Shown one piece after another: positions 3,283-31,666 of a stretch of DNA of 64,000 nucleotides. The notes under the pieces were generated by a model. That model was not told the origin of the DNA, made no database searches, and saw only the letters and a list, made by a program, of their open reading frames with translations. A program made the translations under genes and the position numbers. Positions within the stretch are counted from its first letter, which is position 1. Each line of letters begins with the position of its first letter. Where the stretch lies: NCBI GenBank assembly GCA_017415145.1, contig JAFQJE010000001.1, positions 1 to 64,000 on the forward strand, given 5' to 3'. This DNA is from Clostridia bacterium (GTDB taxonomy: Bacteria > Bacillota > Clostridia > UBA1381 > UBA9506).

Positions 3283-3313
3283 GATTTCACTCCTTTCAAG
3301 GACTTATTTATCC

Positions 3314-3508
3314 TTATTCTGCAAGTTTTCTCTCAGCCATTACTGTCTTAACCTTGGCTATTGTCTTCTTAACCTCAACGATTCTCATGGGGTTTTCCAA
3401 CTGATTTGTAGCATTCTGGAATCTGAGGTTAAAGAGTTCTTTCTTAAGGTCAGCAAGATTGCTTTCGAGTTCTTCTGTGCTTAATGCACGGATTTCGTTT
3501 ACCTTCAT
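3314..3508 (-). CDS. rpmC: Large-subunit ribosomal protein L29
   Basis: 64 aa helical hairpin protein near the exit tunnel, where trigger factor and SRP dock with L23. Recognised by [20 protein letters not shown] and [16 protein letters not shown]. It begins 4 nt after the stop of rplP, so translation is probably coupled. Confidence 0.98.
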
Positions 3509-3512
3509 TAAA

Positions 3513-3938
3513 TTAACCCTCCATTTCTTCAGTTTCTTTTGCTACAAACTTACATTTAATAGGAAGTTTGTGCATAGCAAGACGAAGTGCTTCTCTTGCA
3601 ACTTCTTCTGAAACGCCGTCGATTTCGAAGAGCACTCTGCCGGGCTTAACTACTGCTACCCAGTACTCAGGTGAACCCTTACCACTACCCATACGTGTTT
3701 CAGCAGGTTTTTCTGTAACCGGTTTATCCGGGAAAATCTTGATCCAAACTTTACCGCCACGCTTGATGTAACGTGTCATAGCGATACGGGCAGCTTCGAT
3801 CTGGTTTGATGTAATCCAAGAAGCTTCTAATGCCTGTAAACCGAATGAGCCGTTTGTTACTTTGTTACCACGTAACGCCTGACCCTTCATTCTACCGCGC
3901 ATTACTCTTCTGTATTTTACTCTTTTAGGTAATAACAT
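3513..3938 (-). CDS. rplP: Large-subunit ribosomal protein L16
   Basis: 141 aa. L16 lies near the peptidyl-transferase centre and positions the A-site tRNA elbow. It shows [19 protein letters not shown] and [19 protein letters not shown], both conserved. Only 2 nt separate it from rpsC, so the two are likely translationally coupled. Confidence 0.98.
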
Positions 3939-3940
3939 TC

Positions 3941-4603
3941 TTATTTACCTCCCTCAGTCTTAATCTTCTTGCTCTCGGGAAGGATTTCTCCTTTGTAGAT
4001 CCAGACTTTAACACCGATTTTACCGTATGTTGTGTTTGCTTCAGCAAAACCGTAGTCGATGTCTGCTCTTAATGTCTGGAGCGGAATTGTACCTTCGTGG
4101 TAGTGCTCTGATCTTGCGATTTCTGCACCGCCAAGACGGCCAGAACATGTTGTTTTAATACCCTTAGCACCTAACTTCATTGCTCTGCCCATAACTGATT
4201 TCATTGCTTTTCTGAAAGAAATACGTCTTTCTAACTGTGAAGCGATGTTTTCAGCTACTAACTGTGCATTCATATCAGGCTGCTTTACTTCTTCGATATT
4301 TAAAGCAACTGTCTTATTTGTTAAGCTTTCAAGCTCTTTTTTAACCTTCTCGATTTCAGCGCCGCCCTTACCAATGATGATACCGGGTTTTGCTGCAAAA
4401 ATGTTGATTTTTACTCTTTTAGCTGTACGCTCGATTTCTACTTTCGCAATACCTGCAGCGTAGAGCTTATTCTTTAAGAATTTTCTTAATTTATAATCTT
4501 CAACCAGGTAATCACCGAAGTCCTTATCATTTGCGAACCACTTTGAATCCCAGTCTTTAATTACGCCTACTCTTAAACCGTGTGGATTAACTTTCTGTCC
4601 CAA
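3941..4603 (-). CDS. rpsC: Small-subunit ribosomal protein S3
   Basis: 220 aa. S3 has a type II KH domain ([20 protein letters not shown]) and a C-terminal domain ([15 protein letters not shown]). It lines the mRNA entry tunnel with S4 and S5. The N-terminus [20 protein letters not shown] is canonical. RBS AGGAGG precedes the ATG. Confidence 0.98.
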
Positions 4604-8181: not shown

Positions 8182-8497
8182 TTGTGTTTCCTCCTTATAA
8201 ATTTTGTGTCTGTGAATTGGAACGACAGCATCTTTTTTTGAAAACCGAGCCGGGTGTTTTGCGGCATCTCATAAATAATGCCGAAAACCGTATCGGTCTC
8301 CGGGTTCAAGATGTAGTCTTCTTCTGCACAAACGGACACACGCGCAAAAAGGGCATAGTTGCCCCGTTCTTGCCAAATAGTATTACCGTTTTTGCAATGA
8401 CTCTGTCGCCCGGTTTCAATGAATCGGACATTCTCCATGGAAAAACCCGCGTCGCTACGCGGCAACCTCCCACTTCCTCGTATGCCATGTCACAGCT
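8182..8497 (-). promoter_or_regulatory. S10 operon 5' leader with early terminator-like hairpin
   Basis: About 310 nt of untranslated leader lie between the predicted start of transcription and rpsJ. Near its 5' end a perfect 6-bp stem CCGCGT/ACGCGG with a 4-nt loop (8447-8462) is followed on the minus strand by GTTTTT, like a short intrinsic terminator or pause site. The leader is richer in GC than other intergenic DNA here. Two open frames cross it (8306-8488 and 8157-8465), but neither has a well-placed ribosome-binding site. Confidence 0.6.
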
Positions 8498-13552: not shown

Positions 13553-13576
13553 AAAAAAGAACGGGCTTGCCCGTTC
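13553..13576 (-). terminator. Intrinsic terminator of the B12/ECF operon
   Basis: On the minus strand GAACGGGC-AA-GCCCGTTC is followed by TTTTTT. It lies 27 nt after the stop of the fused ECF gene. Confidence 0.88.
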
Positions 13577-13602
13577 CCTGAAAATTTGCAAAAATATTTC
13601 GT

Positions 13603-15894
13603 CTATATATCATACTTTGTTTTTATTCTTCCTATGGTGTCCATAAAAATTCCCGACAAAAGCCACAAAAACACTGCCGTAGACACACCTAAAACAGCGT
13701 CATAAGGAATACCTGCTATAACTGTAGATATGAACATATCAAATGTAGGTTCAGGATTCCACATAATCAGTGACGCAGGGTTCATTATAAGTCCGTATAT
13801 GGCAATTGATGATACTATGCCATAAATTGATAAAGTTATTTTTGTGGGCTTGATTTTTTTAAAAATTAATGCAGACACCATACCCACTACACCCATAGCA
13901 AACATCTGCCAGGGTGTCCACGCTCCCTGCCCTGCAAACATATTTGACACAAATGCCGTAACCGCACCCGTCAAAAATCCTGCCTCTGCTCCTAGAGTTG
14001 CTCCCGCCAATATAATTATCGCCAGTACCGGCTTTACCTCGGGAAAGGGCGTAAATATAAATCTGCCCGCTACCGCTATGGCAGAAAGCGTCGCTATCAT
14101 CACTATTTTCCGTGATTTGTTTTTTTCCTTTTCAAAGGATACAGCAAATGCGACCAATGCCTCGCATATTACCATTAAACTCATAAGGTAATATTTTTTA
14201 TCCTCTAAAACATACACTCCAAAAAGCAACGTCAGGGGAATTGCAATTAAAAGTCCGATATATGACAATGCAGTATATTTGTTAATACTCGCCCTTTTCT
14301 TCTGTTTCGCGATAGGTTGTTGAGTCTGTACTGCCGTACATTTTTTCTCCGTTTTTTCCTTCTCAGGTGTTTTTGCACCTAATGCTTTTATCAGCTCCTC
14401 AGGCAATATCAATTCATCTGCCAAACCTCTTGCCATTCTGTTTGCAGAAGTTGTATAAAATGCCTTTTTAGAGAAAAATTCACAGGTTTTATCAACAGAG
14501 GTAAACTCCCCGTTAAATAAAAGCGCACATCTGTCACAAACGAGGGCACAAAATTCTACATCGTGCGAAACCATTACGACAGTTTTTTTCTGTTCTGTCA
14601 AGGTCTTTAAAATTTGTTCAAAGTCCTGCTTAAATTCTGCATCCATCCCCTTTGTAGGCTCGTCTAACAGCACAACGTCGCTGTCTGTCAGCAAAACCTT
14701 ACAAAGAGCCGCACGCTCGCTCTCTCCTCCCGATAAGTCCCCCGGATGACGGTATAATAAATGTTCTATACCGCAAAGTCTTGCGTATTCTTTGATGGTT
14801 TCTTCGTCTTTTGTTATTTCTTTTAAATCCTCATAAACGGTTTTATATACAAAAAGATTTTCGCAATTCTGGGGCAGCATGGCACATGCGCCTTTTACTT
14901 TAACACTTCCCATATAGGGTTTTTTTATGCCACACAAAACAGATAACAATGTACTTTTTCCGCTGCCGTTTCCCCCAAGTATACCAAATATCTCACCTGA
15001 CTTAATTTCTGCAGTTACGCCGTTTAATACGTTTATACCATTTTCGCCATACCTTGCATAAAGACCATTGATTTTTACTGCAATCGCATCGTGATGTTCC
15101 TGCGTTCTTTCCTTATTTATTATATTAATACTCTGAGTCGCAAGCCAAGCCCTTCCTTCTTTTATAGTCAAGGGTACAGCTCCTGAATCTAAAGATTTAA
15201 AAACTTTAGCAGGTACAGGAAGGTAGGAAAAAGGAATTTTTTCCCCTATCTCTTTAGGACTACATACATCAAGTGCGCCGCCGTCCATCATCCACACGGA
15301 ATCTGCAAGCTGCAACGCCTCTTCCAGTCTATGCTCGGACAGTATAATTGTGGTTCCCAATTCTTCGTTAATTCTTTTGACCATTGCCAAAAAATCCGTC
15401 GCAGCAATGGGGTCAAGCTGAGACAGAGGTTCATCAAGTATTAAAACATCAGGGTCCATTACCATTACAGAGGCAAGATTTAATATCTGCTTTTGTCCGC
15501 CTGACAGTTTCTGAGTATCTCTATCAAACCATTTCTCAATACCAAAAAACGTCGCCATCTCAGAAACCTTAGCACGAATGTCAAGAGGCTTTATTCCCAT
15601 ATTTTCAAGACCAAAGGCAAGCTCATGCCACACCTTGTCGCAAACTATCTGGTTGTGGGGATTTTGCCCCACATAGCCCACATAATCTGCATTGACTGTT
15701 ATTTCACCAAAACTTTCACCTGCAGGTCTGATTTCTTTTTTCAACTGGGACAAAAGTGTAGTTTTACCGCTTCCCGATGGACCTAACAATACTATAAATT
15801 CTCCTGTATTAACAGAAACGCAAATATCTGACAGTGCCGCATTTGTTTCCTGGGGGTATGTAAATGTAAAATGTTCTATTTTAATTTTTTCCAT
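13603..15894 (-). CDS. ECF transporter: fused ATPase-ATPase-membrane (S-component-like) protein
   Basis: 763 aa carrying three parts usually made as separate proteins. ATPase 1: Walker A GPSGSGKTT at 38-46, signature LSGGQ 130-134, Walker B LILDEP 151-156. ATPase 2: Walker A GGNGSGKST 307-315, signature LSGGE 387-391, Walker B VVLLDEP 407-413. After a charged linker (about 505-538), residues 540-755 form a hydrophobic domain of roughly six or seven helices with S-component-like features (GATLGAEAGFLTGAVTAFVS, GAWTPWQMFAMGVVG). The start is ATG 15892-15894 after GGGAGG; it overlaps EcfT by 19 nt. Because the operon is under a cobalamin riboswitch, the likely cargo is cobalamin or a corrinoid; this is inference. 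Confidence 0.88.
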   Translation of the reverse strand: MEKIKIEHFTFTYPQETNAALSDICVSVNTGEFIVLLGPSGSGKTTLLSQLKKEIRPAGESFGEITVNADYVGYVGQNPHNQIVCDKVWHELAFGLENMGIKPLDIRAKVSEMATFFGIEKWFDRDTQKLSGGQKQILNLASVMVMDPDVLILDEPLSQLDPIAATDFLAMVKRINEELGTTIILSEHRLEEALQLADSVWMMDGGALDVCSPKEIGEKIPFSYLPVPAKVFKSLDSGAVPLTIKEGRAWLATQSINIINKERTQEHHDAIAVKINGLYARYGENGINVLNGVTAEIKSGEIFGILGGNGSGKSTLLSVLCGIKKPYMGSVKVKGACAMLPQNCENLFVYKTVYEDLKEITKDEETIKEYARLCGIEHLLYRHPGDLSGGESERAALCKVLLTDSDVVLLDEPTKGMDAEFKQDFEQILKTLTEQKKTVVMVSHDVEFCALVCDRCALLFNGEFTSVDKTCEFFSKKAFYTTSANRMARGLADELILPEELIKALGAKTPEKEKTEKKCTAVQTQQPIAKQKKRASINKYTALSYIGLLIAIPLTLLFGVYVLEDKKYYLMSLMVICEALVAFAVSFEKEKNKSRKIVMIATLSAIAVAGRFIFTPFPEVKPVLAIIILAGATLGAEAGFLTGAVTAFVSNMFAGQGAWTPWQMFAMGVVGMVSALIFKKIKPTKITLSIYGIVSSIAIYGLIMNPASLIMWNPEPTFDMFISTVIAGIPYDAVLGVSTAVFLWLLSGIFMDTIGRIKTKYDI

Positions 15895-16730
15895 CTTATT
15901 ACCTCCCAAAGTTCAAAAATCAAAGGTGTTAAAGAAAGCAGTACATAGGCTATAACGGTCAGGGGTGAAATCTTTCCAAATATTATATCGGGAAAATACG
16001 TAGCCTTTGTTTCTCCCCACAAAACGCCTGCAAGGGTTAGTACGCCAAAAATAAATATGATACACAATAGGACGGCATCCCTTTTTGTAAATTTATAGTT
16101 TGAAAAGCTGGTACGCTTTGCACTGCCGTAACATCTTGCTTTCATACTGTCTGCCGTCTTTACGCCATTTTCCAGGGAAACTCTCAAAAACGCAGAAAAG
16201 GATTTTTTAAGTCTTATAAATTTATTTTCTTCGCCCTTTCCTATGGCAACTCTTCCTTGATTTATGCTTTTAAAATTCCGTATAAATTCAGGCACAAACT
16301 TAAGTATCATTGAAATCACCAAAGATATGACAGGCAAAATCCCACCAAACAGGCAAATTATTTTTTCAGGTGTAATTATTTTATTTACGCTCATAAACCA
16401 TATTACAACGGAAGAAAGCATAACACCCGACGCCACACCAAAGGCAAGGCTTTCTAAGGTCAGTATATTTCCATTCGGAAAATACCAAAGGGCTGTTGCT
16501 CCCTGATGGTTAAAAAGGACGTTAAACAAAGCAGTCGCCAATGCTGTAAATATTCCCACAACCACTATCTGCAACGTTCTTTTCACACCTGCAAAGACAA
16601 GGGAAACACTAACACTTCCCAGTAATGCTATACCCAGACATACAGGGTGCATCAAGGTTACTGCAAACGTGAGTACGGATACAAAAAATATTAAATTTAC
16701 AATGGGATGACACCTTGTGAATTCTTTCAT
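15876..16730 (-). CDS. ECF transporter T component (transmembrane energy-coupling subunit)
   Basis: 284 aa integral membrane protein with several hydrophobic helices and a long cytoplasmic part. The T-component signature with Ala-Arg-Gly-like coupling residues is seen as ADSMKARCYGSAKRTSF around residue 190. EcfT couples ATP hydrolysis in the A subunits to toppling of the S component. Both A domains and a candidate S domain are in the next gene, overlapping by 19 nt, so a full ECF complex could be made from these two polypeptides. Confidence 0.9.
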   Translation of the reverse strand: MKEFTRCHPIVNLIFFVSVLTFAVTLMHPVCLGIALLGSVSVSLVFAGVKRTLQIVVVGIFTALATALFNVLFNHQGATALWYFPNGNILTLESLAFGVASGVMLSSVVIWFMSVNKIITPEKIICLFGGILPVISLVISMILKFVPEFIRNFKSINQGRVAIGKGEENKFIRLKKSFSAFLRVSLENGVKTADSMKARCYGSAKRTSFSNYKFTKRDAVLLCIIFIFGVLTLAGVLWGETKATYFPDIIFGKISPLTVIAYVLLSLTPLIFELWEVIRWKKLK

Positions 16731-16732: not shown

Positions 16733-17332
16733 TTAATATCCTATTACTTTATAGAAAAATACTATTTTATCAGATGGTTTTACCAAAACATCTGAGCATC
16801 CTACCCTGGGAACTTCACCATTTACCGAGAATTTCCACCCTGAACGCTCACCGCAATCAAATTCATAAAGATTTCCTATACCCTCTATATATGCACTATT
16901 ATACACAGGTGTAAGGGAAAATTCAAGATGCACACCCGATGAAATAAGTGCTCGCTTCAACACATCAAAAACACTGTCGCCCTCTTGAATTTCTTCTTTG
17001 GAATTTGTATACATTATGCCGTTTTGGGGAATAACGCCTCTTTTTTCTTCCTTTAAGCTTTCCATATTTTCAAGCACGTCCGTACAGTCAACCATTAGAC
17101 TTACCGTGTTGACCTTTTCGGGTTCGGGAGTGGGTTCCGTTATTTTTTCTGTTTCCTGAACTTTTAGAGGAACTTCTGCCTTTTGTTCAACATTTTTTAA
17201 TGGTTCCTGAGGTTCTGCAGATGATATTACATCTGGGGAGACAGACGATTCAGAATACTTTGTTTCATTCTCTGCACCGCATCCGCATAAAAGTGTCGCT
17301 ATTAAAAAAACAGTTACTAAAATTCTCTTCAT
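16733..17332 (-). CDS. DUF4430 (transcobalamin-C-like) lipoprotein
   Basis: 199 aa. It has a lipoprotein signal peptide (MKRILVTVFLIATLLCGCG, lipobox LCGC), a Pro/Glu-rich spacer (about 25-75), and a C-terminal DUF4430-like domain ending GWKFSVNGEVPRVG...SDKIVFFYKVIGY. DUF4430 (Transcobalamin_C-like) resembles the beta domain of human intrinsic factor and transcobalamin, which caps bound B12. The gene lies 7 nt after the SLH protein and 2 nt before ecfT. Probable role: membrane-anchored B12 relay to the ECF transporter; this is inferred from fold family and context. Confidence 0.85.
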   Translation of the reverse strand: MKRILVTVFLIATLLCGCGAENETKYSESSVSPDVISSAEPQEPLKNVEQKAEVPLKVQETEKITEPTPEPEKVNTVSLMVDCTDVLENMESLKEEKRGVIPQNGIMYTNSKEEIQEGDSVFDVLKRALISSGVHLEFSLTPVYNSAYIEGIGNLYEFDCGERSGWKFSVNGEVPRVGCSDVLVKPSDKIVFFYKVIGY

Positions 17333-17339: not shown

Positions 17340-19382
17340 CTACTTCAAAACATTTTCACAAAATCTCATGAATACTGCGGCAATTTCTCCTCTTGTAGCA
17401 CCATTTGAAGGGTCAAAGCTTCCATCCTCTCGTCCTGATACCAGTCCTAGATTCTTTGCCCAATTTGCGGCATATTTTGCCCAATCAGAAATTTCATTAT
17501 CATCTATAAATTCACCTTCACCTGTGGCTGTATCCAGTTGTTCAAGTTCAGCATATCTCATGAGCATTACCACCAACTGTTCGCGGGTTACTTCGTCATC
17601 TGCTCCGAAAATGCCGTTGCCGTATCCGTTTGTTATGCCTTTTTCCCTTGCCCAGACAGCAGCTTCCTTGTACCATACGCCATCACTGATATCCGAAAAT
17701 TCATTTTCACCATCAGCCGTATCACCACTTAATCTGTACAACATTGTAACAAGCATAGCACGTGTCAGCTTTTTATCGGGTGCAAATTCTCCCTCTCCAA
17801 CGCCGTTCATAATTCCTTTTTTAACTACATATTCCACGGCTTCCTTTGACCAATGGTTAATCACATCATTAAATGCAGGAACTTCGGGAGTTTCCGAAAC
17901 TTCTGGTGTTTCAGGAGTTTCGGAGATTTCAGGTTTTACAGGCTTTGCGGGTTTTGTGTTTGACGAACCTCCGCCGTAGCCATTTCCTCCTCCGCCCAAA
18001 ATACTGCCACCTGTATTTGTCGTTGTCTTTTCTCTATAATAATACCACAAAATTTCATCATTCTCAGTTAATACACAATTCTTCATTCCTACTTCAGGAG
18101 TTTCGCCATTTACTGAGTACATCCATCCTGAATTTGCTCCGTAACTACCTGCAGACATCGTTGTTCCATCTTTTGTTATTGAAGTTATATATCCGTTTTC
18201 TGCGCCTGTTGCACTAATTCCGTCTACAGCTTCTAGTACCGCACAGAAAGCATCATATACTGTTCCATTTTCAGGAATTTCAACCGACATACTCTCTAAC
18301 CAGTATGTGTTATCAGGCTTTATTGATAAAACAACAGTAATTTTATTTATCTCCGGCACACTAGGTGTATCTGTTCCAGGTATTTCTTCTATAATTTGTT
18401 GTCTTCCCGGAATAACCTCTTTACCACTAAAATTATAAATATTAAATGCCTGTCCTTTATACTGCGACAAAGCTACAAGAGCACGAAACCCCTGTTCCGT
18501 CGCCATGAAATTATCATTGCCTGCAAAGGTGAAGCCGTTGTTTGTTTCATTCTTGTAAGACAGGAGCCCATCTATAACTGACGCTTCACTCACAGGATGC
18601 CTCATATCTGCAGGATTATTACCCATCGCTATAAGACCAATAATCACAAAAGCATCGGAATTTGCACTGCCAAAAGAACCGCTTTCTGATATCATACTAT
18701 CAAAAGCTACAAGTATTTCATCACAAAGCGCTTTTGCTTCATTGTTGGTTGCATACAAAGGAGCTAATGCCGCCAAAACTGCTGCTGCAGTGTCAGGGTC
18801 GGGATATTGCACGCCATCCCATTCGTAGCCGAATGTACCGCCTGCTGAATTCTGTTGTAAAATTTCAACAAGTGCATCTGTCTGTACATCAGACAGATTA
18901 ACATTTCCCTGCATATCAGCAAGCAATATCCAAGGAGCTGCATAGTGACCTGATGCGGTATGGTCTGCATTAGCAAGTGCCGCAGCATTATTTACGCGGT
19001 CATTGCTGTTATAAGTGTAAAGTTCCTGTGAATCAACTCCCAGAGACCTTAAAATAATTTCTACGCGTGCACGGTCTGATGCTGTAGCTGTGTATGACGT
19101 TGCTATATCAATACAAGCATTTATTATCTCCTGATTTATGTCATCTGACATTGAGACGGTTGCATCAGGAAGTGCAGAATACGCCGCCATATCAAAAGCA
19201 GTCCAACCGTCTTCTACGTCTTTTAATACTTCTGCAATATTATCACGAAGTGTAATTTCCTCAGCACTTAGTTGATAACTCATTTGTGCGCTTTCCTGTG
19301 TTGTTTCCTCTGCAAATACCCCTACAGAAGAAAATAGCATTAAAAATGCTAAAAGTAGTGCTAAAAGTTTTGTTTTTTTCAT
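17340..19382 (-). CDS. SLH-anchored intrinsic-factor-like protein (alpha/alpha toroid + DUF4430)
   Basis: 680 aa. Signal peptide 1-24 (cut after VFA). Residues about 40-310 look like an alpha/alpha toroid of the prenyltransferase/terpene-cyclase type, with repeated Gly-Phe-Gly/aromatic turns followed by helices (GTFGYEWDGV...DTAAAVLAALAPLY; SGSFGSANSDAFVIIGLIAM; NGFTFAGNDNFMATEQGFRA). Residues 346-450 are a DUF4430 domain (SGWMYSVNGETPEVG...NDEILWYYY). A Gly/Pro/Glu linker (452-502) leads to three SLH repeats (504-680) for binding wall polysaccharide. Human B12 carriers also join an alpha/alpha barrel to this beta domain. I place the start at ATG 19380-19382 after GGAG; the 65-codon upstream extension is riboswitch RNA. 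Confidence 0.87.
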   Translation of the reverse strand: MKKTKLLALLLAFLMLFSSVGVFAEETTQESAQMSYQLSAEEITLRDNIAEVLKDVEDGWTAFDMAAYSALPDATVSMSDDINQEIINACIDIATSYTATASDRARVEIILRSLGVDSQELYTYNSNDRVNNAAALANADHTASGHYAAPWILLADMQGNVNLSDVQTDALVEILQQNSAGGTFGYEWDGVQYPDPDTAAAVLAALAPLYATNNEAKALCDEILVAFDSMISESGSFGSANSDAFVIIGLIAMGNNPADMRHPVSEASVIDGLLSYKNETNNGFTFAGNDNFMATEQGFRALVALSQYKGQAFNIYNFSGKEVIPGRQQIIEEIPGTDTPSVPEINKITVVLSIKPDNTYWLESMSVEIPENGTVYDAFCAVLEAVDGISATGAENGYITSITKDGTTMSAGSYGANSGWMYSVNGETPEVGMKNCVLTENDEILWYYYREKTTTNTGGSILGGGGNGYGGGSSNTKPAKPVKPEISETPETPEVSETPEVPAFNDVINHWSKEAVEYVVKKGIMNGVGEGEFAPDKKLTRAMLVTMLYRLSGDTADGENEFSDISDGVWYKEAAVWAREKGITNGYGNGIFGADDEVTREQLVVMLMRYAELEQLDTATGEGEFIDDNEISDWAKYAANWAKNLGLVSGREDGSFDPSNGATRGEIAAVFMRFCENVLK

Positions 19383-19403
19383 TTTTTCTTCTCCTTTTTT
19401 CGC

Positions 19404-19436
19404 AAAAAAGCCGCAGTAATACACCAACTTACTGCG
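19404..19436 (-). terminator. Terminator of the cobalamin riboswitch
   Basis: On the minus strand an 8-bp stem CGCAGTAA/TTACTGCG (19412-19436) is followed by GGC and TTTTTT (19404-19409). It lies between the aptamer and the ATG of the SLH gene, as expected for control by premature termination. Confidence 0.88.
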
Positions 19437-19665
19437 ACTGTTTTTGTCTAATTTTGTGCTTTTGCACTCGCATATTGCCAAGTCTTCTGACTTATGTATT
19501 ATGGATTTCTCCTGCGAAATACTGCCTACCTTCCCTTTAAGTGGCCGACTTTCGTCGCGGCAATACCCCTCATACAAATACAGCTGTGGGTACAGTTACG
19601 GATTCTAACCGTCTTCCTTTTATCAGCGGCATTGCTACCGCCGACGACAATACGTCTTATTAAAT
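19437..19665 (-). promoter_or_regulatory. Cobalamin (B12) riboswitch
   Basis: On the minus strand the conserved elements appear in order: GGTTAGAATCCGTAACTGTA followed by CCCACAGCTG, then GCCACTT with AAAGGGAAGGTAGGCAG, and the B12 box AAGTCAGAAGACTTGGCA (near 19475-19495). These match the adenosylcobalamin aptamer consensus (AAxTCCxxxxCxGxxCCCGC, GCCACTG, GGGAAGG, AGTCAGAAGACCTGCC). A terminator follows directly. It should shut off the SLH/DUF4430/ECF operon when B12 is plentiful. Confidence 0.93.
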
Positions 19666-19672
19666 TGCTTAT

Positions 19673-19700
19673 ATTTTATCATAATCTGCCGAAATGTCAA
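19673..19700 (-). promoter_or_regulatory. Promoter of the B12 operon
   Basis: -35 TTGACA (19695-19700), 16-nt spacer, -10 TAAAAT (19673-19678), minus strand, immediately upstream of the riboswitch. Confidence 0.78.
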
Positions 19701-19759: not shown

Positions 19760-20422
19760 TTATTTCCCCATTATATACCTTATAATCCTTCTTGCAATAG
19801 CTGCAACCTCGCCACGTGTGATAGGTTCATTAGGCATAAATCTATTCTCAGTTCTGCCGTTTACAATCCCCATCTGGCAAAGCTCGTTGATTGCATTTTC
19901 CGAGAAATGTCCTTTTGTATCTATAAATTTACTGTCACATTCCATAATCTTCTCCTTAAACTCCTTCCACCTTGCCCAGTCCTCGCCACTCATTGAAGCG
20001 GGACAATTTTTTCTGCTTGCATCATAATGTCTCACCACACGCTCTGCAGGAATATCCAATTCCTTCATCAGATGCTTGGTAAGCTCCACGGCATTTTCAA
20101 AAGCCTTACTGTAATCTCCGTCAGCATTTACACAAATTTCAATGCCCACGGAATTTTGATTTGTAATACCGTATTTTCCTTTGCCGTCGCCTACCTGCCA
20201 TGTATAATACTTAGTGTAGTCATTAACCTGCAAAATTTTTGTGTCATCAACAAAGAAGTCAGCAGAAGAATTACGGTTCCCGCCGTTAAAATATTTAAAG
20301 TGAGCATCAGCATCCGAGCCTTTCGACTTATTACCCGTATCGTGGATAACTATGTACTTTATTGCGGAAGTACGCACTAAACGATTGTAGGCAATCTGCT
20401 TTTTTTCAACATCAGCCATCAT
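19760..20422 (-). CDS. Phage endolysin: N-acetylmuramoyl-L-alanine amidase with an SLH domain
   Basis: 220 aa. Amidase_2 (PGRP-like) zinc amidase that cuts the bond between MurNAc and the stem peptide. Zinc ligands are H27 (YIVIHDTG), H132 (VVRHYDASRKNCP) and C140; E95 is in VGIEICVN. The C-terminus (about 166-217) is one SLH repeat (GHFSENAINELCQMGIVNG...ITRGEVAAIARRI) in place of the usual LysM or SH3 binding domain. No signal peptide, as expected for holin-dependent release. Its ATG overlaps the holin stop (TAATG). Confidence 0.93.
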   Translation of the reverse strand: MMADVEKKQIAYNRLVRTSAIKYIVIHDTGNKSKGSDADAHFKYFNGGNRNSSADFFVDDTKILQVNDYTKYYTWQVGDGKGKYGITNQNSVGIEICVNADGDYSKAFENAVELTKHLMKELDIPAERVVRHYDASRKNCPASMSGEDWARWKEFKEKIMECDSKFIDTKGHFSENAINELCQMGIVNGRTENRFMPNEPITRGEVAAIARRIIRYIMGK

Positions 20423-20838
20423 TAATCATCCTCATCATCCTCTTTCTCAATTTTGTCCTTTAATTGTTCAAGTATGCCCGCAAGATTTCTCGCAACCGGC
20501 ACATTCATTCTGGCACTGTTTTCTAGAATAGATATTCCCTCGTTTGCTATGTAAAAACCAACCGCCAAATCACGAATACCGCCTACACCAATAACGACCT
20601 CAAGCTCATGGGCCAAGACTACAATACACAAAATTGCAAATTTTTTAAGTATCCCTCGAAACCCGACTTCACTGTTGAGCTCTCTCTCATATATTGCAGC
20701 CATAATCCCTGTCACATAATCCACAACGATACAAATTAACAAAGCCGTAAACAACGCATCCAAGCCTCCAAAGATATTCGAAAGTATTGCGGCCACAACG
20801 CCGCAGGCAATTTTGATGCCGCTCATAATATTTTCCAT
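20422..20838 (-). CDS. Phage holin (toxin-secretion/lysis holin family)
   Basis: 138 aa with three to four hydrophobic stretches (IACGVVAAILSNIFGGLDAL; LLICIVVDYVTGIMAAIY; FAILCIVVLAHELEVVIG; VGFYIANEGISILENSA) and an acidic tail KIEKEDDEDD. The VDYVTGIMAA...SEVGFRGILKKFAIL block is typical of Phage_holin_4. It would permeabilise the membrane for the adjacent amidase. The start is ATG 20836-20838 after AAAGAGGTG; a longer frame from 20871 lacks a ribosome-binding site. Confidence 0.9.
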   Translation of the reverse strand: MENIMSGIKIACGVVAAILSNIFGGLDALFTALLICIVVDYVTGIMAAIYERELNSEVGFRGILKKFAILCIVVLAHELEVVIGVGGIRDLAVGFYIANEGISILENSARMNVPVARNLAGILEQLKDKIEKEDDEDD

Positions 20839-20874
20839 ATCACACCTCTTTCCTGCGGCGCACAGCCGCACCTC

Positions 20875-21141
20875 TTATCTCTCCAAAACTTCTGCCTTAA
20901 ACGTTCTGATGTCATCAGGCGTACCATTTGCTACCAAGTCACAAAGCTTTTCGATAGAAGCTTCATCTTTTTCTCTTCTGCACTTTGTGATTACATCGTA
21001 GTGTGCGCCGATGAACTCGCCAGCTTTACGGAGTTCTGCCTCATTAGGCTTATCCTCAGCAATACACATATCACGTGCAACTAAAACATCCTCTCCGGTT
21101 TCCTTTGATTTGTCTAAAATTCTTTTTACTAATTCGTACAT
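20875..21141 (-). CDS. Small phage protein of unknown function
   Basis: 88 aa, predicted mostly helical and charged (MYELVKRILDKSKETGEDVL...). I do not recognise a family. It has a good RBS (AAGGAGG) and fits tightly between another small gene and the holin, so it is likely translated. Genes in this place in related prophages are often lysis accessories or structural cofactors; nothing in the sequence decides. Confidence 0.7.
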   Translation of the reverse strand: MYELVKRILDKSKETGEDVLVARDMCIAEDKPNEAELRKAGEFIGAHYDVITKCRREKDEASIEKLCDLVANGTPDDIRTFKAEVLER

Positions 21142-21154
21142 TTTATGTACCTCC

Positions 21155-21337
21155 TTAATTTAATTTATCTAAAGCCTCTTTTGCTTCAGCCTCTAAGATT
21201 TTGTCGTACTCTTCCAAAGATATTTCCTTGATACCGTCAGCGGTTCTATCTTCTGCCAACTGCATTGTTGTGCCGAAAGTTTCTCCATCTGTTAAAATCA
21301 TACCTTCTTCGGCATATAAAGTAATCATTGTTTTCAT
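21155..21337 (-). CDS. Small phage protein of unknown function
   Basis: 60 aa, acidic. The start MKTMITLYAEEGMILTDGET and the C-terminal EISLEEYDKILEAEAKEA recall short proteins often seen after tail-fibre genes in Clostridia prophages (recalled, not searched). It begins 12 nt after the preceding gene with a GGAG-type RBS. No function can be given. Confidence 0.65.
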   Translation of the reverse strand: MKTMITLYAEEGMILTDGETFGTTMQLAEDRTADGIKEISLEEYDKILEAEAKEALDKLN

Positions 21338-21349
21338 ATCATTTCTCCT

Positions 21350-22171
21350 TTACGCATAACTAAAAGTCCAGTTATCCTTTGAATGCCTGAGTTCGTAAAA
21401 CTTAGAGCCCTCAGGGTATGTAGTTTCATCATCAACATCAATTCCAAAGGCTTCGTTTACCGCCGTCTTTTTTAATGTTAGTGTTTTGCCTGTTGCGGTT
21501 GTTGACAAGGCATTTACAATACTTGTGATACTATCCTTTGTTAAAGGGCTTGAACTAAACGATATCGTAGTTGCTATAACACCCTCTATAACAATGTTTT
21601 TAAGTGCAGTGCAACCATTAAACATACTTGTGTTTGCTGTCGTTTTATTGCCAAAATTCAATTTTTCAATAGTAACCATTTTAGAGCACCCTTCAAACAT
21701 CGATGTACGATTTGTAACAGAAGTCATATCAATTACAGGGAAATTGGTTATAGTAGAATAATAAGCAAATTGCGCACAGTATTGCATCTTTGACAAATCA
21801 AGAGTTACATTCCTTTCCTTCAATATGCCCCTTAAATCTGTTATATTCGCCTCCGCAAAGTACAGTTCAGCATTGACAGGATTAAGCGTTGTTCCTATTG
21901 GCGGTTTAAAAGTTTTATTATTCCACCCTCTTGAACCAAACGCACGTTTGGCTTGACCATAGTTTGATAGTCCTGATAAATAGCTATTCCAAAATTCCTT
22001 GTATTGCGCATATCTTCCATCCTCTTCTCCCTTTAGGACACCATTTTCAAAACCTATATCGCGACATCTGTCAATTTTTGTAGGGATTTCATCCAAGGAA
22101 AGCCTGTCCGTTTCTTTCGTATAGCTCCTTATTTTGTTGGCAATGGTTGTCATTTTTTCATTTACGCTCAT
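21350..22171 (-). CDS. Putative tail-tip receptor-binding protein with BspA/DUF285-like repeats
   Basis: 273 aa. The N-terminal 60 residues (MSVNEKMTTIANKIRSYT...LSLDEIPTKID) are of a type common on phage baseplate proteins. Residues about 110-220 contain BspA/DUF285-like repeats with the pattern TSVTNRTSMFEGCSKMVTIE and TANTSMFNGCTALKNIVIEG. Such repeats on a phage protein suggest binding to a host surface. The start is ATG 22169-22171, overlapping the preceding stop (TAATG); a TTG two codons earlier is less likely. Confidence 0.65.
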   Translation of the reverse strand: MSVNEKMTTIANKIRSYTKETDRLSLDEIPTKIDRCRDIGFENGVLKGEEDGRYAQYKEFWNSYLSGLSNYGQAKRAFGSRGWNNKTFKPPIGTTLNPVNAELYFAEANITDLRGILKERNVTLDLSKMQYCAQFAYYSTITNFPVIDMTSVTNRTSMFEGCSKMVTIEKLNFGNKTTANTSMFNGCTALKNIVIEGVIATTISFSSSPLTKDSITSIVNALSTTATGKTLTLKKTAVNEAFGIDVDDETTYPEGSKFYELRHSKDNWTFSYA

Positions 22172-22713
22172 TACCAAGCACCTCCCAAGATAGCTTCATC
22201 AACATAAGATTTGATTTCAGCTTTATCTTCGTCTGTCCAGTAATCTTCGCCCTTTACAGGAATGGAATCTTCTATAAGTTTGTTTGCCTGGTCGATTTTA
22301 CTTTGTGCTTCATTTAGCAGAGTAACATATACAGAAAGATTATCTGCACCTTCTATAGCAGCTTCGCCTAAACCTTGCACTACTGAAGCAACAATAATTT
22401 TTGTGGTAGCATATCTGCCGGCAGAATCAGACAGCGCAATTTCCATATAAAGCTCCCCCGGAACTGCGTAGAAATTATTTTCAGGAACAAATACTGCGGC
22501 ATTGTCCTGTATATTTCCTGCACCGGCGACAACTACTCCATCTGAACGTTTCGCTCTGACAGATAGTGTATAGTTTGAAATGTCCACCCTTGTACCATTA
22601 TTATAAAATTCAAAAATTAACCTGTTGGATTTTACATCTCCCGAAACAAAACAAATATCAGAGGTAAGAATTTTTTCATCCTGAAAATTTACTTTTATTT
22701 TATAATCAATCAT
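22171..22713 (-). CDS. Baseplate upper protein N-terminal-like (BppU) phage protein
   Basis: 180 aa. An N-terminal beta domain (IDYKIKVNFQDEKILTSDIC...SNRLIFEFYNNGTRVDIS) resembles BppU_N, which attaches receptor-binding proteins to the baseplate in lactococcal phages. A helical segment follows (YVTLLNEAQSKIDQANKLIE), and the C-terminus (KGEDYWTDEDKAEIKSYVDE) is a motif often seen at the ends of Clostridia phage tail proteins. It lies between a fibre-like gene and the DUF285-like gene. Confidence 0.7.
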   Translation of the reverse strand: MIDYKIKVNFQDEKILTSDICFVSGDVKSNRLIFEFYNNGTRVDISNYTLSVRAKRSDGVVVAGAGNIQDNAAVFVPENNFYAVPGELYMEIALSDSAGRYATTKIIVASVVQGLGEAAIEGADNLSVYVTLLNEAQSKIDQANKLIEDSIPVKGEDYWTDEDKAEIKSYVDEAILGGAW

Positions 22714-22722
22714 ATATACCTC

Positions 22723-23628
22723 CTAAAACAATATAAGGTCAATACCAAAACCAACCGGTGTGCCATATTTGCTGTATGCGTTGAGTTCCACAGTTAATTT
22801 TCCATCGTCCATTGAAAATGTGATATATGCCGTTGAATAATTGCTGTTGGGATAATCACGAATATACAGTGAGTGTACACAAACACTGGCATTATAAAGT
22901 TCACCTGATGAGTTGTTTATATTATTGCAATAAAAGCTTAAATATGATGACTCTTTAATGTCGTATATTCCCAGACAAGGAAGCGTCTGACCTGAAACTC
23001 CTCCATCTGCTCTTTTAACATAGGTCAAGATATATTCGAAAGTGTTATTTCCTATATCAAAAGTTCTACTGCCTGTGTAATATCCTGAACCTGTGCTTGT
23101 TACAGATATAGACCCCTGTATTCTCATTACATTTTCTGCAACACTCTGATAACCTGGGAGCTTACCCTTTGCATACGTACGCTTGTCAGTAATCGCACCA
23201 TACTCACTGATTTCGGCAAGCAACACGTAATCTCCCTCAGGTTCAGCTACAGTACAACAGGGATAGCATCTGTTTGTATTAATTAAATCATTTTTTAAGT
23301 AAACGTAGTTTTTAGAGCCCGAAACGTAAGAGAGTGTTTCTCCGCCCGCCTCAATTTCAATTACTGCACCATCGTCAAAAAACGCCTTGCCCGGATTAAT
23401 TAAAATTTTACCATCGCCGGCATCCTCCACCTTTAGCGATAAATAACTCTCGGGTACTGCACCCGATGTATATAATAATTTTCCTGCATCGTTAAATCTC
23501 GAAGCATTATACGCAACACCATCTGTAAAGCTATCCTCTACTCCCGATGTTACAAGCCTTTTTGTTATGGCGTTTATATCATTTGCACCATAAATTTCAT
23601 TATCTGCAAAACTGTATTTATATGCCAT
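22723..23628 (-). CDS. Phage tail fibre/baseplate structural protein
   Basis: 301 aa. The N-terminus MAYKYSFADNEIYGANDINA begins a module common at the start of tail appendage proteins, followed by a region with DAGDGKILINPGKAFFDDGA and EPEGDYVLLAEISEYGAITD, which resembles attachment segments of phage fibres. The rest is beta-rich and unrecognised. No enzyme motif. Context places it between Tal and BppU-like genes. Confidence 0.65.
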   Translation of the reverse strand: MAYKYSFADNEIYGANDINAITKRLVTSGVEDSFTDGVAYNASRFNDAGKLLYTSGAVPESYLSLKVEDAGDGKILINPGKAFFDDGAVIEIEAGGETLSYVSGSKNYVYLKNDLINTNRCYPCCTVAEPEGDYVLLAEISEYGAITDKRTYAKGKLPGYQSVAENVMRIQGSISVTSTGSGYYTGSRTFDIGNNTFEYILTYVKRADGGVSGQTLPCLGIYDIKESSYLSFYCNNINNSSGELYNASVCVHSLYIRDYPNSNYSTAYITFSMDDGKLTVELNAYSKYGTPVGFGIDLILF

Positions 23629-23640
23629 TTTTAACCTCCT

Positions 23641-24744
23641 TTATAAATCTGTCATGGTAGGACTTGCACCTACCCCATCACGTTCTACCCACATATGAAC
23701 GCCCGATACAAGTTTTTTCTTGGTTATGCAACATCCCCCACTGTAAAAACGTGTATTGATAATATCTCCTATTTTATAATCTGTGCCATATTCAAGTCTT
23801 GTTTTAAGCGTCAACATATCCATAGGTTTTTTATCGCTAAATTCTTTTTGGGCATCTGTTTCATTCTTTGCATCAAGTACACCTGTCCATGAAAAAATCC
23901 CTGTATCTTCGGGCATAACTTCTACTAAAAAAGGCTTGGCTTCATCTATTACCTCAAATCCACCATTTTTATCTCTGCAAGCTAAAATATCTCCTTTTTT
24001 TAAGTTAAGTCCCATTCTTTGTCCATCACTTGAAACAACATAATATTTACCATAGTTTTCAGGAGTTATGCTTATTGAGGGAATATTGCTACCTGCGTCA
24101 TATTTACCCATGCAGGTCAGCTCATGGTAGTAGTATCCACCCTGTATATCCTTCTGTATGTCGTGGGTGTAGACGCTTTCATAGGATGTTTTGTACTCAT
24201 CACACAATATTATATCTTTGTTTTCAAGTGCTCTTTTCAACGAAAACTTAAATTTTTTCTCTTTAAAATCTGCACAAAATGAAAACCCTATATCAGGCTG
24301 GTTAATACATTTTTTTATAGCACTGTACATATCCGTTACCTTGTCAAGTGTAAAATCTGACATATCACAATTGTCATCAATCCCGTAAAACTCGAGATTA
24401 AACTCTGCAGGTAAATGGGACAGAATATTTTCTACCGTACCGCTTAAATTTTCTCCTTTAGGTACCTCTTTCACTACGAATTTTGTAAGCAACCACTCCA
24501 AAGTTCTTGTAAATACAGTGCAGGTTTTACCGATGCAGTATCCCGTTACAACGGATTGAATATCTCCTTGAACCAAAAAAAGATGCTTGTTGTGTGTAAG
24601 CAGGGAAACTGTATCAACAGAAGGTACGAATTCTATTTCTCCTGTGCCGAATTCTGAAAATTTTATTTCCCAGTTTGATGCCAAAAAATCAGGAATTATT
24701 GCAACAAGGTCTAGGTTTTCATTATATATTCTTATATCCTTCAA
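23641..24744 (-). CDS. Phage tail-tip protein (Gp37/Tal-like)
   Basis: 367 aa. It resembles the Siphovirus ReqiPepy6 Gp37-like family, the baseplate hub/tail-associated protein: starts MKDIRIYNENLDLVAIIPDF and has LEWLLTKFVVKEVPKGENLS and later LKTRLEYGTDYKIGDIINTR. It directly follows the distal tail gene, as Tal does in siphoviruses. No peptidoglycan-hydrolase domain is visible, so it lacks the lytic tip seen in some relatives. Confidence 0.72.
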   Translation of the reverse strand: MKDIRIYNENLDLVAIIPDFLASNWEIKFSEFGTGEIEFVPSVDTVSLLTHNKHLFLVQGDIQSVVTGYCIGKTCTVFTRTLEWLLTKFVVKEVPKGENLSGTVENILSHLPAEFNLEFYGIDDNCDMSDFTLDKVTDMYSAIKKCINQPDIGFSFCADFKEKKFKFSLKRALENKDIILCDEYKTSYESVYTHDIQKDIQGGYYYHELTCMGKYDAGSNIPSISITPENYGKYYVVSSDGQRMGLNLKKGDILACRDKNGGFEVIDEAKPFLVEVMPEDTGIFSWTGVLDAKNETDAQKEFSDKKPMDMLTLKTRLEYGTDYKIGDIINTRFYSGGCCITKKKLVSGVHMWVERDGVGASPTMTDL

Positions 24745-24758
24745 ACGATTACCTCCCT

Positions 24759-25595
24759 TTATAAACAGACACAGAGATAATTATTGTTGTATATACACTC
24801 GGCATATATCTTACCTTCTGCATCCCATGCGCTGATTTTTACATCTGAAACTCCTGTCTCAAGGAAAAATTCTGATAATGACGTTTCATCATCAAGACAA
24901 AAAATGATATTACCACGGCTACTGCTTGTGATTCGCCTGTTCTTGACATCTACCTTTATCTGTTCATTTGGGGCAATATCCGTATTAAGCTTAATTTTCG
25001 CACCTGTATTAAGGTTTTCAATAATGATTCCATCAGGACATACTGCACCTTCAGGACTTGTAAGAATAAATACAGGTTCTATATTGACATCTCCCTTGTT
25101 TACAATCATAGTCTGTGTCTTTTTTACAGACAAGCTGCAGGGCAATACAAACGGTGATGACAATACCCCTTCACGCTTGCTTACTATTGTCTTGGTATCA
25201 TTTACGTCCTGAAAATAAGGATTTTCCGCCATAAGCTGTAAAACGAACGGTATGTATACACCTTTACGTTTGTTGGTTTCAAAACTGATGCAGCGTGCAA
25301 AAATTTTCCTACTGACGCCACTTGATATTATTGTCATAGCACCAGACTTTGATAATATATGCATCGCACGTGCAGTATTTTTACCCATAGTATCACGTGC
25401 ATCCCCCGAAATGGTAATAATTCTTTCCTGTGAAGCTGATTTATTCACGATGCAACCCGCCATATCGGGATAATACACCGTATCTATATCATTTTCAGGC
25501 ATAGAAAGTCCGCGTATTTCAATGACATTGAAAATACCGTTTCCTCCGCCGTACATAACAACTTTTCCTCTTTCGTTTTCATAAATAATTTTCAT
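24759..25595 (-). CDS. Phage distal tail protein (Dit/Sipho_tail)
   Basis: 278 aa. The pattern IEIRGLSMPENDIDTVYYPDMAG near the N-terminus, then SASQERIITISGDARDTMGK and PFVLQLMAENPYFQD, fits the phage tail family that forms the ring at the end of the tail tube. The second half is a beta domain (NKGDVNIEPVFILTSPEGAV). It follows the tape measure gene as expected. Confidence 0.78.
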   Translation of the reverse strand: MKIIYENERGKVVMYGGGNGIFNVIEIRGLSMPENDIDTVYYPDMAGCIVNKSASQERIITISGDARDTMGKNTARAMHILSKSGAMTIISSGVSRKIFARCISFETNKRKGVYIPFVLQLMAENPYFQDVNDTKTIVSKREGVLSSPFVLPCSLSVKKTQTMIVNKGDVNIEPVFILTSPEGAVCPDGIIIENLNTGAKIKLNTDIAPNEQIKVDVKNRRITSSSRGNIIFCLDDETSLSEFFLETGVSDVKISAWDAEGKIYAECIYNNNYLCVCL

Positions 25596-25606
25596 TGTAT
25601 CCTCCC

Positions 25607-26683
25607 CTACTCCATACCTCTCATATAAGTAAAGAGAGCATCATTTTTCGCCATCATTCTTGTTCTTGACGTACTCGCCCTGTCCCCGTAAAAATAATAA
25701 CTGGGTGAAAATACTGACTGATTTGTGCCCGATTCATTCTGTGATATTTCTATTCCTACCTGAGACAGAAATGTTTCAAGGTCGCACATTAAACCGTCTA
25801 TTTTGCTCATGAAACCCTCTACAAAATTGTCGCCCGTCATTTCGCCATAAGCTAGAAATTCTTCAGGTATTTCGGAAAACGTACTTTCCAGTTCACGACG
25901 CAATTCACTGGCAATACTTTCCGCCTCTGCTTCATAAAAAGATTTAGAAATACTGTCTGACAGTTCATTTCTTTTTTGGTAAGATTCAAAATATTTATTA
26001 AAGTCTGCTTCACCCGCTTTGAGCAATAAGTCCATCATTGCCTGTGCATCTTCTATGGATATGTTGCCTAATTCTGAAAAAAAAGACCTTATGGTCTCAG
26101 GAGATATATTCTGTGCTCTTTCCTTTAATTGCTCAAGACTCTGGCTGAAGTGTTCAAGTTTTTTTATCTCTGCATCAAAATCAGCTAATGTATGCTCTGT
26201 AAAAACCAATGCATCGCCGTTTGGATAATAGTTGCCTATCTGTACCTTGGTACTTTTAAGACCTATTCCGCCTGCAAAATCCTGAAGGTCAGAAGAAAAC
26301 CCTTCCTGCTCCTTTTTCATTTGGGAGTATTTTTGCTGACTTATCTTTAGAATATCATTGAGATTATCCTCTACAGCCTGCTTGTAATTCTCCATTACAC
26401 CTACCTTGTAGTCATATATTTCGGCGGTATATTTGTGCCATTCCTGAGAATTACGGCTAAAATATATATCCCGTATTTGGGCCAGCTTATCATAGTATTC
26501 TTCCTCTGTTATAAGACCGTATTTTAACTGGTATCCTATGGCTTCGTATCTTGTTTTGAAGGCTTGTACAACTTTTGTGTTGGTCTTTAAAAGAGAGTTT
26601 ATGTACCCACTATCATAGGCCTGTGCCATTTGTTCGCCTAACTCTTGTGCCTCTTTAAAAACTTCTTTTATGTTTTCTTCCAT
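25607..26683 (-). CDS. Short phage tail tape-measure protein
   Basis: 358 aa, helical and coiled-coil-rich. A conserved block found at the ends of some Clostridia tape-measure proteins is present: LVFTEHTLADFDAEIKKLEH, then MMDLLLKAGEADFNKYFESY. It lies between the tail chaperone and Dit, the normal tape-measure position. It is unusually short for a siphovirus; at roughly 0.15 nm per residue it would set a tail of only about 50 nm. No transmembrane or lysozyme domain is visible. Confidence 0.72.
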   Translation of the reverse strand: MEENIKEVFKEAQELGEQMAQAYDSGYINSLLKTNTKVVQAFKTRYEAIGYQLKYGLITEEEYYDKLAQIRDIYFSRNSQEWHKYTAEIYDYKVGVMENYKQAVEDNLNDILKISQQKYSQMKKEQEGFSSDLQDFAGGIGLKSTKVQIGNYYPNGDALVFTEHTLADFDAEIKKLEHFSQSLEQLKERAQNISPETIRSFFSELGNISIEDAQAMMDLLLKAGEADFNKYFESYQKRNELSDSISKSFYEAEAESIASELRRELESTFSEIPEEFLAYGEMTGDNFVEGFMSKIDGLMCDLETFLSQVGIEISQNESGTNQSVFSPSYYFYGDRASTSRTRMMAKNDALFTYMRGME

Positions 26684-26695
26684 TGACGCCCTCCT

Positions 26696-27259
26696 TTAAA
26701 ATAAATCTGCTATATTCTCGCCCACATCTACTTCTTTTGAAGAAGTTATCCTGTACTTGGCTTTAAGGGCGGATATTCTGTTGCGTGCTTTGATGTTTTT
26801 TATTTCATTCTCATCAGTTGTCCTGATTTTTATCACGGTTTTAAATGGATTTTCATCTGCTAATGTTTCAAACAGGGAACAAAATTTGTACCAGTGTAAA
26901 TCCTCTTTTTCTAAATCAATTCCGTACTTTGAATAAAAAGCTGAATAAATCAGGTCGCAGTCTGCACAAAATGATGTTATTCTTTCTTTTTTAACCTGAG
27001 GGGACACAGAAAAATCTGTGCCCCTGTTTAAAAATGAAATTGCACCAAGCAACGCTGATGTGCTGTTTGGCGGTAAGTTTTCTTTATAACAAAGCTTTAA
27101 AACCTCTGCCATTATCTTTGGGGCCTTTATGTTCTCCCTTTCTAAAATACAGGAAATCTTTACCCAGTTTTTAAAGCTCGTATGTACAGGATATTCATCA
27201 CCGTATAGTGTAATGCTATCAGGTAAAGCATCTGTGAGTATATTAAATTCCTTACTCAT
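26696..27259 (-). CDS. Phage tail assembly chaperone (Gp15-like)
   Basis: 187 aa. Fits the bacteriophage Gp15 family: YPVHTSFKNWVKISCILERE near the N-terminus and EKEDLHWYKFCSLFETLADE later. Such proteins chaperone the tape measure during tail assembly, as lambda gpG does. It overlaps the tail-tube gene by 8 nt. I did not find evidence for a programmed frameshift product. Confidence 0.8.
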   Translation of the reverse strand: MSKEFNILTDALPDSITLYGDEYPVHTSFKNWVKISCILERENIKAPKIMAEVLKLCYKENLPPNSTSALLGAISFLNRGTDFSVSPQVKKERITSFCADCDLIYSAFYSKYGIDLEKEDLHWYKFCSLFETLADENPFKTVIKIRTTDENEIKNIKARNRISALKAKYRITSSKEVDVGENIADLF

Positions 27260-27749
27260 CGGCGGTAAATGTTAAAGTTTTAGCATCTGCTGAAATTTCA
27301 GCAATACCAAACACTTTTTCGCCCTTTGTGCTCATTGTACCGCTTAGAGTGTATGCATCTGTGGAGTTACCTTCTGTTTCCACCATAACAGAAAAATCAC
27401 GAAGAATCGCAGGACACTTTCCAGCAACGTCCCTTTGAGATACATCTACCAAAACAATAGAACGTACTGCATCTGTGCCTAAAATTTCATTATCAGAAAT
27501 TTTAATAATATCATCGTGCACAGGGTTGCCTGCATATCTGTCAAAGGTAAATGCAATTGACGGACTGATAGCCACAACATCTGTCTGTTCAAAGCTTTCG
27601 TCAATGTATCTGCGTGAATATTCCACAGGATTTTTTGATGTATCCATTTTGGTAAATCCGCACATTCTGTGATATACCACATTTCCGTCTGTGTCCGGTA
27701 CACCGTAATATGCAACTTTTTCATGTCTGCCTATTAACTTTCCTAACAT
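27252..27749 (-). CDS. Phage major tail (tube) protein
   Basis: 165 aa, beta-rich. The sequence YYGVPDTDGNVVYHRMCGFT and SPSIAFTFDRYAGNPVHDDI is of the type seen in major tail proteins of Clostridia siphoviruses. Position fits: after the tail-completion gene and before the Gp15 chaperone. It overlaps the upstream gene by 7 nt. Confidence 0.78.
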   Translation of the reverse strand: MLGKLIGRHEKVAYYGVPDTDGNVVYHRMCGFTKMDTSKNPVEYSRRYIDESFEQTDVVAISPSIAFTFDRYAGNPVHDDIIKISDNEILGTDAVRSIVLVDVSQRDVAGKCPAILRDFSVMVETEGNSTDAYTLSGTMSTKGEKVFGIAEISADAKTLTFTADE

Positions 27750-28177
27750 AATTTACTTCCTTTCTCGTTTGCTTTGTAAAAAGTAAGGGCAAGCTCTGCC
27801 CCGTAAACTGCCGTATCACTAAAATACGAAACATTGTCCCTCGAAAAATTGAGCTCTATATTTATTGCAACCTTGTCCTCGCCCATATCAGGCAAGATTC
27901 CTTTTGCACTTTGTTCCAAAACCCATTTCTGCAAGTTCTCTGCCAGAACACTGTTTTCTGTATTTTTGCTCACGTCGATTCCAAATGGAAGACGGAGCCT
28001 TAACTTGTACACACTTTTTTCCAAAGTGTCTCCATCTGTATATTTTTTCAATATACTGGTACTCGGTCTTCCGCTTATGGAAAGGGAATGTGGATTTTTT
28101 CCCAAAAAATCCACATTCATATTAAAATCCGAAAGAATAGGGCAGTTTTTTAAATAGTCTAAAATGTCTGTAACCAT
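27743..28177 (-). CDS. Phage tail-completion/minor capsid-like protein
   Basis: 144 aa. Starts MVTDILDYLKNCPILSDFNM; contains GRPSTSILKKYTDGDTLEKS and RLRLPFGIDVSKNTENSV. Its length and place before the tail tube gene match tail terminator or minor capsid proteins of siphoviruses. I use ATG 28175-28177, which follows AAAGGA with good spacing; a frame extending to 28243 would overlap the upstream gene and lacks an RBS. Confidence 0.65.
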   Translation of the reverse strand: MVTDILDYLKNCPILSDFNMNVDFLGKNPHSLSISGRPSTSILKKYTDGDTLEKSVYKLRLRLPFGIDVSKNTENSVLAENLQKWVLEQSAKGILPDMGEDKVAINIELNFSRDNVSYFSDTAVYGAELALTFYKANEKGSKLC

Positions 28178-28196
28178 ATCTATCCTTTCTGTAAAT

Positions 28197-28508
28197 TTAT
28201 CTGCACAGGACTTTTGTATGAGATGTGTTTTCTCCGCATCCATTTTTTGTGACAGAAACTACAGCCAATGCATTATAAGGAGGAGTATTTCCGTCATAAG
28301 GCATCATAACAATTCTGTCCGATACTTTAATGTCGCACTCAGTATTTCCCATCACACGCATAACCTGTGACACATTTTTGTCCATAGTATCTGACAGATT
28401 GTAGCTTTCCTTAAACCCTGCAATAAACACATTTTGTATCTCATGTCCTGACCATATATTTTCTTTTTCATCGTATCTGAAAACCTTGATTGTTTTTAAG
28501 TTTTTCAT
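28197..28508 (-). CDS. Phage head-tail joining protein, probable
   Basis: 103 aa. No family is certain. It contains SQVMRVMGNTECDIKVSDRI and YDGNTPPYNALAVVSV, which describe a small beta-rich protein as is usual for head-closure or minor capsid proteins. It overlaps the upstream connector gene by 4 nt. Confidence 0.6.
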   Translation of the reverse strand: MKNLKTIKVFRYDEKENIWSGHEIQNVFIAGFKESYNLSDTMDKNVSQVMRVMGNTECDIKVSDRIVMMPYDGNTPPYNALAVVSVTKNGCGENTSHTKVLCR

Positions 28509-28837: not shown

Positions 28838-28855
28838 AAAACCATTCCTTTAGGA

Positions 28856-29728: not shown

Positions 29729-29746
29729 TATTTATACCTCTTTCTC

Positions 29747-31653: not shown

Positions 31654-31666
31654 TTTTTCTCCTTTT

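Follow-up and report, generated by a model that had tools for sequence, protein, structure and literature searches.

A Clostridia gene that joins both ATPases and a CbrT-type S-component of a predicted vitamin B12 transporter in one chain

The window analysed here is a stretch of 64,000 nucleotides (positions 1 to 64,000, forward strand) of contig JAFQJE010000001.1 from a gut-type Clostridia bacterium (GCA_017415145.1). Its minus strand carries a gene that encodes the two ATPases (A and A') and the S-component of an energy-coupling factor (ECF) transporter as one protein of 763 amino acids (aa). Together with a separate EcfT (CbrV), this protein probably makes up an ECF importer dedicated to vitamin B12 or a closely related corrinoid; A-A' corresponds to CbrU and the S domain is of the CbrT type. 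A corrinoid is the predicted substrate because the operon has a B12 riboswitch, the S domain is similar to CbrT, and a partner protein is transcobalamin-like. A dedicated (group I-like) corrinoid module had already been proposed in a sequence-only reading of this DNA, and is supported here. The fusion gene is made up as follows.

13603..15894, minus strand: A-A'-S fusion gene, CbrU-CbrT type, 763 aa
15205..15894, minus strand: ATPase A, residues 1-230, complete motifs (Pfam and motif alignment)
about 15535-15717, minus strand: gap of ~12 residues within residues 60-120 of ATPase A (alignment with relatives)
14455..15090, minus strand: ATPase A', residues 269-480, complete motifs (Pfam and motif alignment)
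14281..14382, minus strand: flexible charged linker, residues 505-538 (low AlphaFold2 confidence; length varies among relatives)
14134..14280, minus strand: extra two-helix membrane hairpin, residues 539-587 (AlphaFold2 and family alignment)
13612..14118, minus strand: six-helix CbrT-like S-component core, residues 593-761 (Pfam; 6FNP_A match)

The gene is a single intact open reading frame that runs from an ATG at 15894, with GGGAGG ahead of it, to the stop codon at 13603-13605 without an internal stop, and the remaining five frames over the same interval hold 16-64 stops each. Pfam found ABC_tran twice in the protein. Both ATPase halves have the Walker A motif, Q-loop, LSGG signature, Walker B motif with its catalytic Glu, and H-loop, all near-invariant across relatives. 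The AlphaFold2 model of the whole chain (90-row alignment; predicted local distance difference test (pLDDT) 93.3, predicted template modelling score (pTM) 0.88) shows two ATPase domains followed by eight membrane helices from residue 539 on, and its confidence is lowest (<50) at residues 520-526. The order along the chain is ATPase A, ATPase A', a flexible linker of ~34 residues, the membrane hairpin and the six-helix S-component, and the sequence of the membrane part is consistent with a topology that places its N-terminus and positive loops inside. A fold search with the full chain was uninformative on the S domain, as the 50 matches listed were other ABC-ATPase proteins. The intact frame, the Pfam domains and the model all bear out the earlier proposal of A, A' and S in one 763-aa chain. 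The proposed boundaries (linker 505-538, S region 540-755) were right in outline, but the hairpin at 539-587 had been missed, and the CbrT-like core starts only at about residue 592. Assembly error or frameshift read-through was considered as a source of the fusion and is ruled out, since 40 of 80 independent loci, and most matching relatives, have the same fusion.

A profile search of the C-terminal domain agreed with its description as S-component-like, as two Pfam S-component families scored above their cut-offs: ECF-ribofla_trS at residues 592-737 (44.1 bits, cut-off 26.7) and ECF_trnsprt at residues 595-747 (31.9 bits, cut-off 30.7). When the S part was used as a single query, the sole significant match among solved structures was CbrT of Lactobacillus delbrueckii (6FNP chain A, E 7e-10), and a 17-row S profile matched CbrT over near-full length (E 1.1e-15), the next match being a riboflavin S-component (1.9e-5). 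The AxxxA motif, a mark of transport-competent S-components, serves in docking and is retained in S helix 1 (of 41 fused rows, 39 have A601 and 40 have A605). Both it and the WT..Q.FA motif align with CbrT, the segment WTPWQMF hardly varies among relatives, whether fused or split, and the S core is strongly conserved. These comparisons mark the C-terminal domain as a CbrT-type S-component, which would bind and transport a corrinoid. Almost every split S protein of the family has an aligned counterpart of the hairpin ahead of the core, so the hairpin did not arise through the fusion.

The fusion gene closes an operon, which has the following elements in order of transcription.

19673..19700, minus strand: promoter-like site, TTGACA-16-TAAAAT (11/12 consensus; shuffled sequence yields such sites at least as often)
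19460..19666, minus strand: cobalamin riboswitch RF00174 (Rfam 53 bits, E 2.3e-10)
19402..19442, minus strand: terminator-like hairpin with T run, between riboswitch and first gene (-15.4 kcal/mol, z -3.9)
17340..19382, minus strand: secreted protein with alpha-barrel, DUF4430 and S-layer homology (SLH) domains, transcobalamin-like fold
16733..17332, minus strand: DUF4430 lipoprotein (PF14478, E 8.8e-16; lipoprotein-type N-terminus by sequence reading)
15876..16730, minus strand: EcfT (CbrV-like), with a 19-base overlap with the fusion gene (family profile)
13556..13579, minus strand: intrinsic terminator downstream of the fusion gene

Taken as a whole, the operon is a predicted B12 uptake unit. 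Besides its riboswitch, no other cobalamin riboswitch was found in the genome (85% complete); the hairpin that follows the riboswitch is likely its expression platform. The EcfT of the window, as a single query, had no Pfam match; its family profile matched EcfT of the Protein Data Bank (PDB) at 6.7e-20, and CbiQ was matched in 14 of 17 relatives. The surface protein probably starts at the ATG at 19382 and not at a TTG at 19577. The best fold match to its model, which is of moderate confidence (pLDDT 69), is transcobalamin:CD320, with the domains placed differently; the likeness is a fold lead only, and B12 binding is putative. With S, A-A' and T together in one operon, the system has the gene arrangement of a group I (dedicated) ECF transporter, and as a separate, complete EcfA1-EcfA2-EcfT set is present elsewhere in the genome, the A-A'-S module is probably not the shared one. 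The genome also has a B12 adenosyltransferase, and no BtuC-type (FecCD) permease was found in the 85% of it that is available.

The distribution of the gene was surveyed in 81 genomes, comprising the window's own and relatives within the order (E up to 1e-60). It was present in 40 of them, nearly always as a single frame, 795-949 aa long (the window's own has 769). The sample of 80 related loci divides into 40 with the fusion, including that of Ruminococcus bromii YE282, and 38 with A-A' as its own gene, which a separate S gene adjoins in nearly all cases (about 37 loci). Each of the 40 fused loci has EcfT directly upstream, and 37 have a DUF4430 gene. A cobalamin riboswitch reached the Rfam threshold in 9 of 17 fused and 2 of 8 split loci surveyed (these counts are from Rfam; a crude B12-box pattern search missed most riboswitches). 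In seven fused loci (L012, L017, L024, L032, L034, L042 and L080, at about 3300-4130) the riboswitches are short (123-139 bases) and score low, and are perhaps a compact variant; those of other loci have 173-216 bases. In the surface-protein family, 24 of 30 aligned members carry a type I dockerin (e.g., L012:5210-6343), so that in Ruminococcus-type loci the likely B12 binder may be held on assemblies that resemble cellulosomes or amylosomes. In four split loci S is directly followed by another EcfT gene, so that the order is EcfT - A-A' - S - EcfT (L035:10358-11230, L036:11279-12175, L038:10336-11184 and L089:10403-11293). Two apparent T-A-A'-S chains (L048, 1175 aa; L083, 1050 aa) were rejected, as EcfT is in both a separate frame overlapping an N-terminal extension that is itself a mere upstream open stretch. 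A single origin of the fusion was considered: the trees need four to five changes between fused and split states, well-supported branches force only one or two, and the window row is long-branched. In L028 the separate S begins with a linker-like stretch and the hairpin, which suggests a secondary split.

The linker bears on how such a chain could work. Measured between window residues 490 (A') and 540 (first family helix), the interval in fused relatives is either a soluble linker of ~50-70 aa, the class to which the window copy belongs, or longer, up to ~128 aa and in one case (L047) >140, mostly with an additional membrane hairpin. The S segments flanking it hardly change in length. With linker length so free, the segment is most simply read as a flexible tether. 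Fully stretched, ~34 flexible residues would reach ~100 angstrom (estimated at ~3.5 angstrom per residue), which should be enough for toppling and local undocking and too short for S to escape from the module. The linker therefore looks long enough for the movement in question, and the suggestion that fusion constrains toppling is weakened: toppling in place is sterically plausible, and only escape of S would be prevented.

In the mechanism we propose, the SLH-anchored transcobalamin-like protein and the DUF4430 lipoprotein would capture the corrinoid outside the cell and hand it over to the S domain. ATP binding and hydrolysis by A-A' would act via EcfT; the S domain would dock through its AxxxA helix, topple and free the corrinoid inside. 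It may then be pushed off the EcfT surface, yet be kept by the cytoplasmic tether, so that the same S re-docks. A fall in B12 would relieve the riboswitch and turn the operon on, judging from the riboswitch-terminator layout. We think it rather likely that a widespread class of ECF importers cycles with S never leaving the motor, either by toppling in place or by undocking within reach of the tether. If so, ECF transport in general would not depend on S being set free in the membrane.

Several observations weigh against this account of a B12 importer. Residue 735 in S helix 6 (nt 13690-13692), a His in CbrT and in most relatives, is Leu in the window copy, a change that could affect substrate binding. 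Compared with most relatives it lacks ~12 residues of ATPase A, between Walker A and the Q-loop, and its row forms a long branch in the tree. No clear B12-using enzyme was found in the incomplete (85%) genome, and the undocking step is borrowed from group II transporters.

A possible though somewhat doubtful alternative is a dedicated B12 importer in which S never undocks but rocks or topples on EcfT, in a power-stroke cycle without release, a state fixed by the fusion. Expulsion has not been formally demonstrated as essential (PMC12075633), and the fusion would prevent exchange of S; however, linkers that are predicted to be flexible, of unconstrained length from ~50 to ~128 aa, are as expected for a moving S, and S is a free protein in close split relatives. 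That the same machine imports another corrinoid, or a precursor of B12 such as cobinamide or cobyrinate diamide, in place of cobalamin seems unlikely. CbrUVT has been annotated for cobyrinate diamide uptake (PMC8123684), ECF-CbrT also carries cobinamide (PMC5997447), and the helix-6 Leu of the window copy could be read in the same sense, but the riboswitch and the transcobalamin-like partner favour cobalamin in general; later corrinoid-assembly genes were sampled by one GATase_3 search. It is improbable that the S domain acts in trans, either by docking on EcfT in an adjacent complex or as a free subunit cut from the chain in vivo. The flexible linker would permit either version and split relatives work from separate genes, but the linker alignments showed no conserved site for cleavage, and given the length of the linker, docking in cis is simpler. 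The S fold is common to 5TMR receptors and MreD (PMC11109136) and weak 5TMR matches occur in 2 of 17 family members, but a sensor or scaffold that leaves transport to a separate S is most improbable given the retained AxxxA motif, the strongly conserved S core and WTPWQMF segment, and an operon that holds no other S of the CbrT-like family.

Outside the operon, phage-type genes (an amidase with SLH, a holin and an SPP1-like portal protein) lie directly upstream at about 19760-32935 and are probably a prophage or its remnant. Rfam also placed a ZMP/ZTP riboswitch at 42385-42472, which precedes purine-type genes, and at 8403-8486 an S10-Clostridia ribosomal leader.

The open-access literature that was searched yielded no description of an A-A'-S fusion, but an earlier notice is possible; ECF subunits are described there as 'sometimes fused into multidomain proteins' (PMC12075633). 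For group II transporters, the ejection of S has been described as a central or essential step, while the 2025 single-molecule study of ECF-CbrT (PMC12075633) notes that the need for it is not formally shown and that data on group I would be of interest. A transporter for the same substrate class with A, A' and S naturally in one chain settles part of this question by design, as S cannot diffuse away or exchange, and the tether offers a natural test of whether each transport cycle requires S to part from the motor. The fusion also fixes the subunit ratio, which aids reconstitution and single-molecule labelling, and the transcobalamin-like surface protein of the operon points to a route of B12 capture in gut and rumen Clostridia.

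Among known systems, the closest is the dedicated CbrTUV transporter, a predicted B12 ECF transporter with a separate S, found on L. plantarum pMF1298-5 and on Levilactobacillus brevis plasmids, and listed as CbrUVT among the B12 systems of gut bacteria (PMC6593275). It shares homologous A-A' and S with EcfT, the gene order, and a nearby DUF4430 gene; on pMF1298-5, EcfT, A-A' and S are consecutive, the DUF4430 gene lies two genes further on, and CbrU/CbrT align with the window fusion at 92% coverage and 33% identity. By sequence, the window system is a CbrU-CbrT fusion of this transporter. CbrTUV has three separate genes for T, A-A' and S, whereas the window S is joined to A-A' by a linker, and the window system is therefore a variant and not a standard member. 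ECF-CbrT of Lactobacillus delbrueckii (PDB 6FNP) has a homologous S with aligned motifs and a homologous EcfT, but it is a group II transporter in which CbrT is a free six-helix S, with neither fusion nor extra hairpin, and the module is shared with other S-components. The group I thiamine transporter YkoEDC also has A-A' in one chain (YkoD), a dedicated EcfT and S, and riboswitch control (PMC5037267), but its S (YkoE) is separate and its substrate is thiamine; since YkoD and other A-A' fusions are familiar, the premise that ECF subunits are usually separate was too strong. The mammalian B12 binders transcobalamin and haptocorrin, which also contain the DUF4430 domain (PMC4350170), are matched in fold by the modelled alpha-barrel and beta domain of the surface protein, but differ in domain placement and in sequence (11-15% identity); the window protein is SLH-anchored on a bacterium, and the transporter has no counterpart there.
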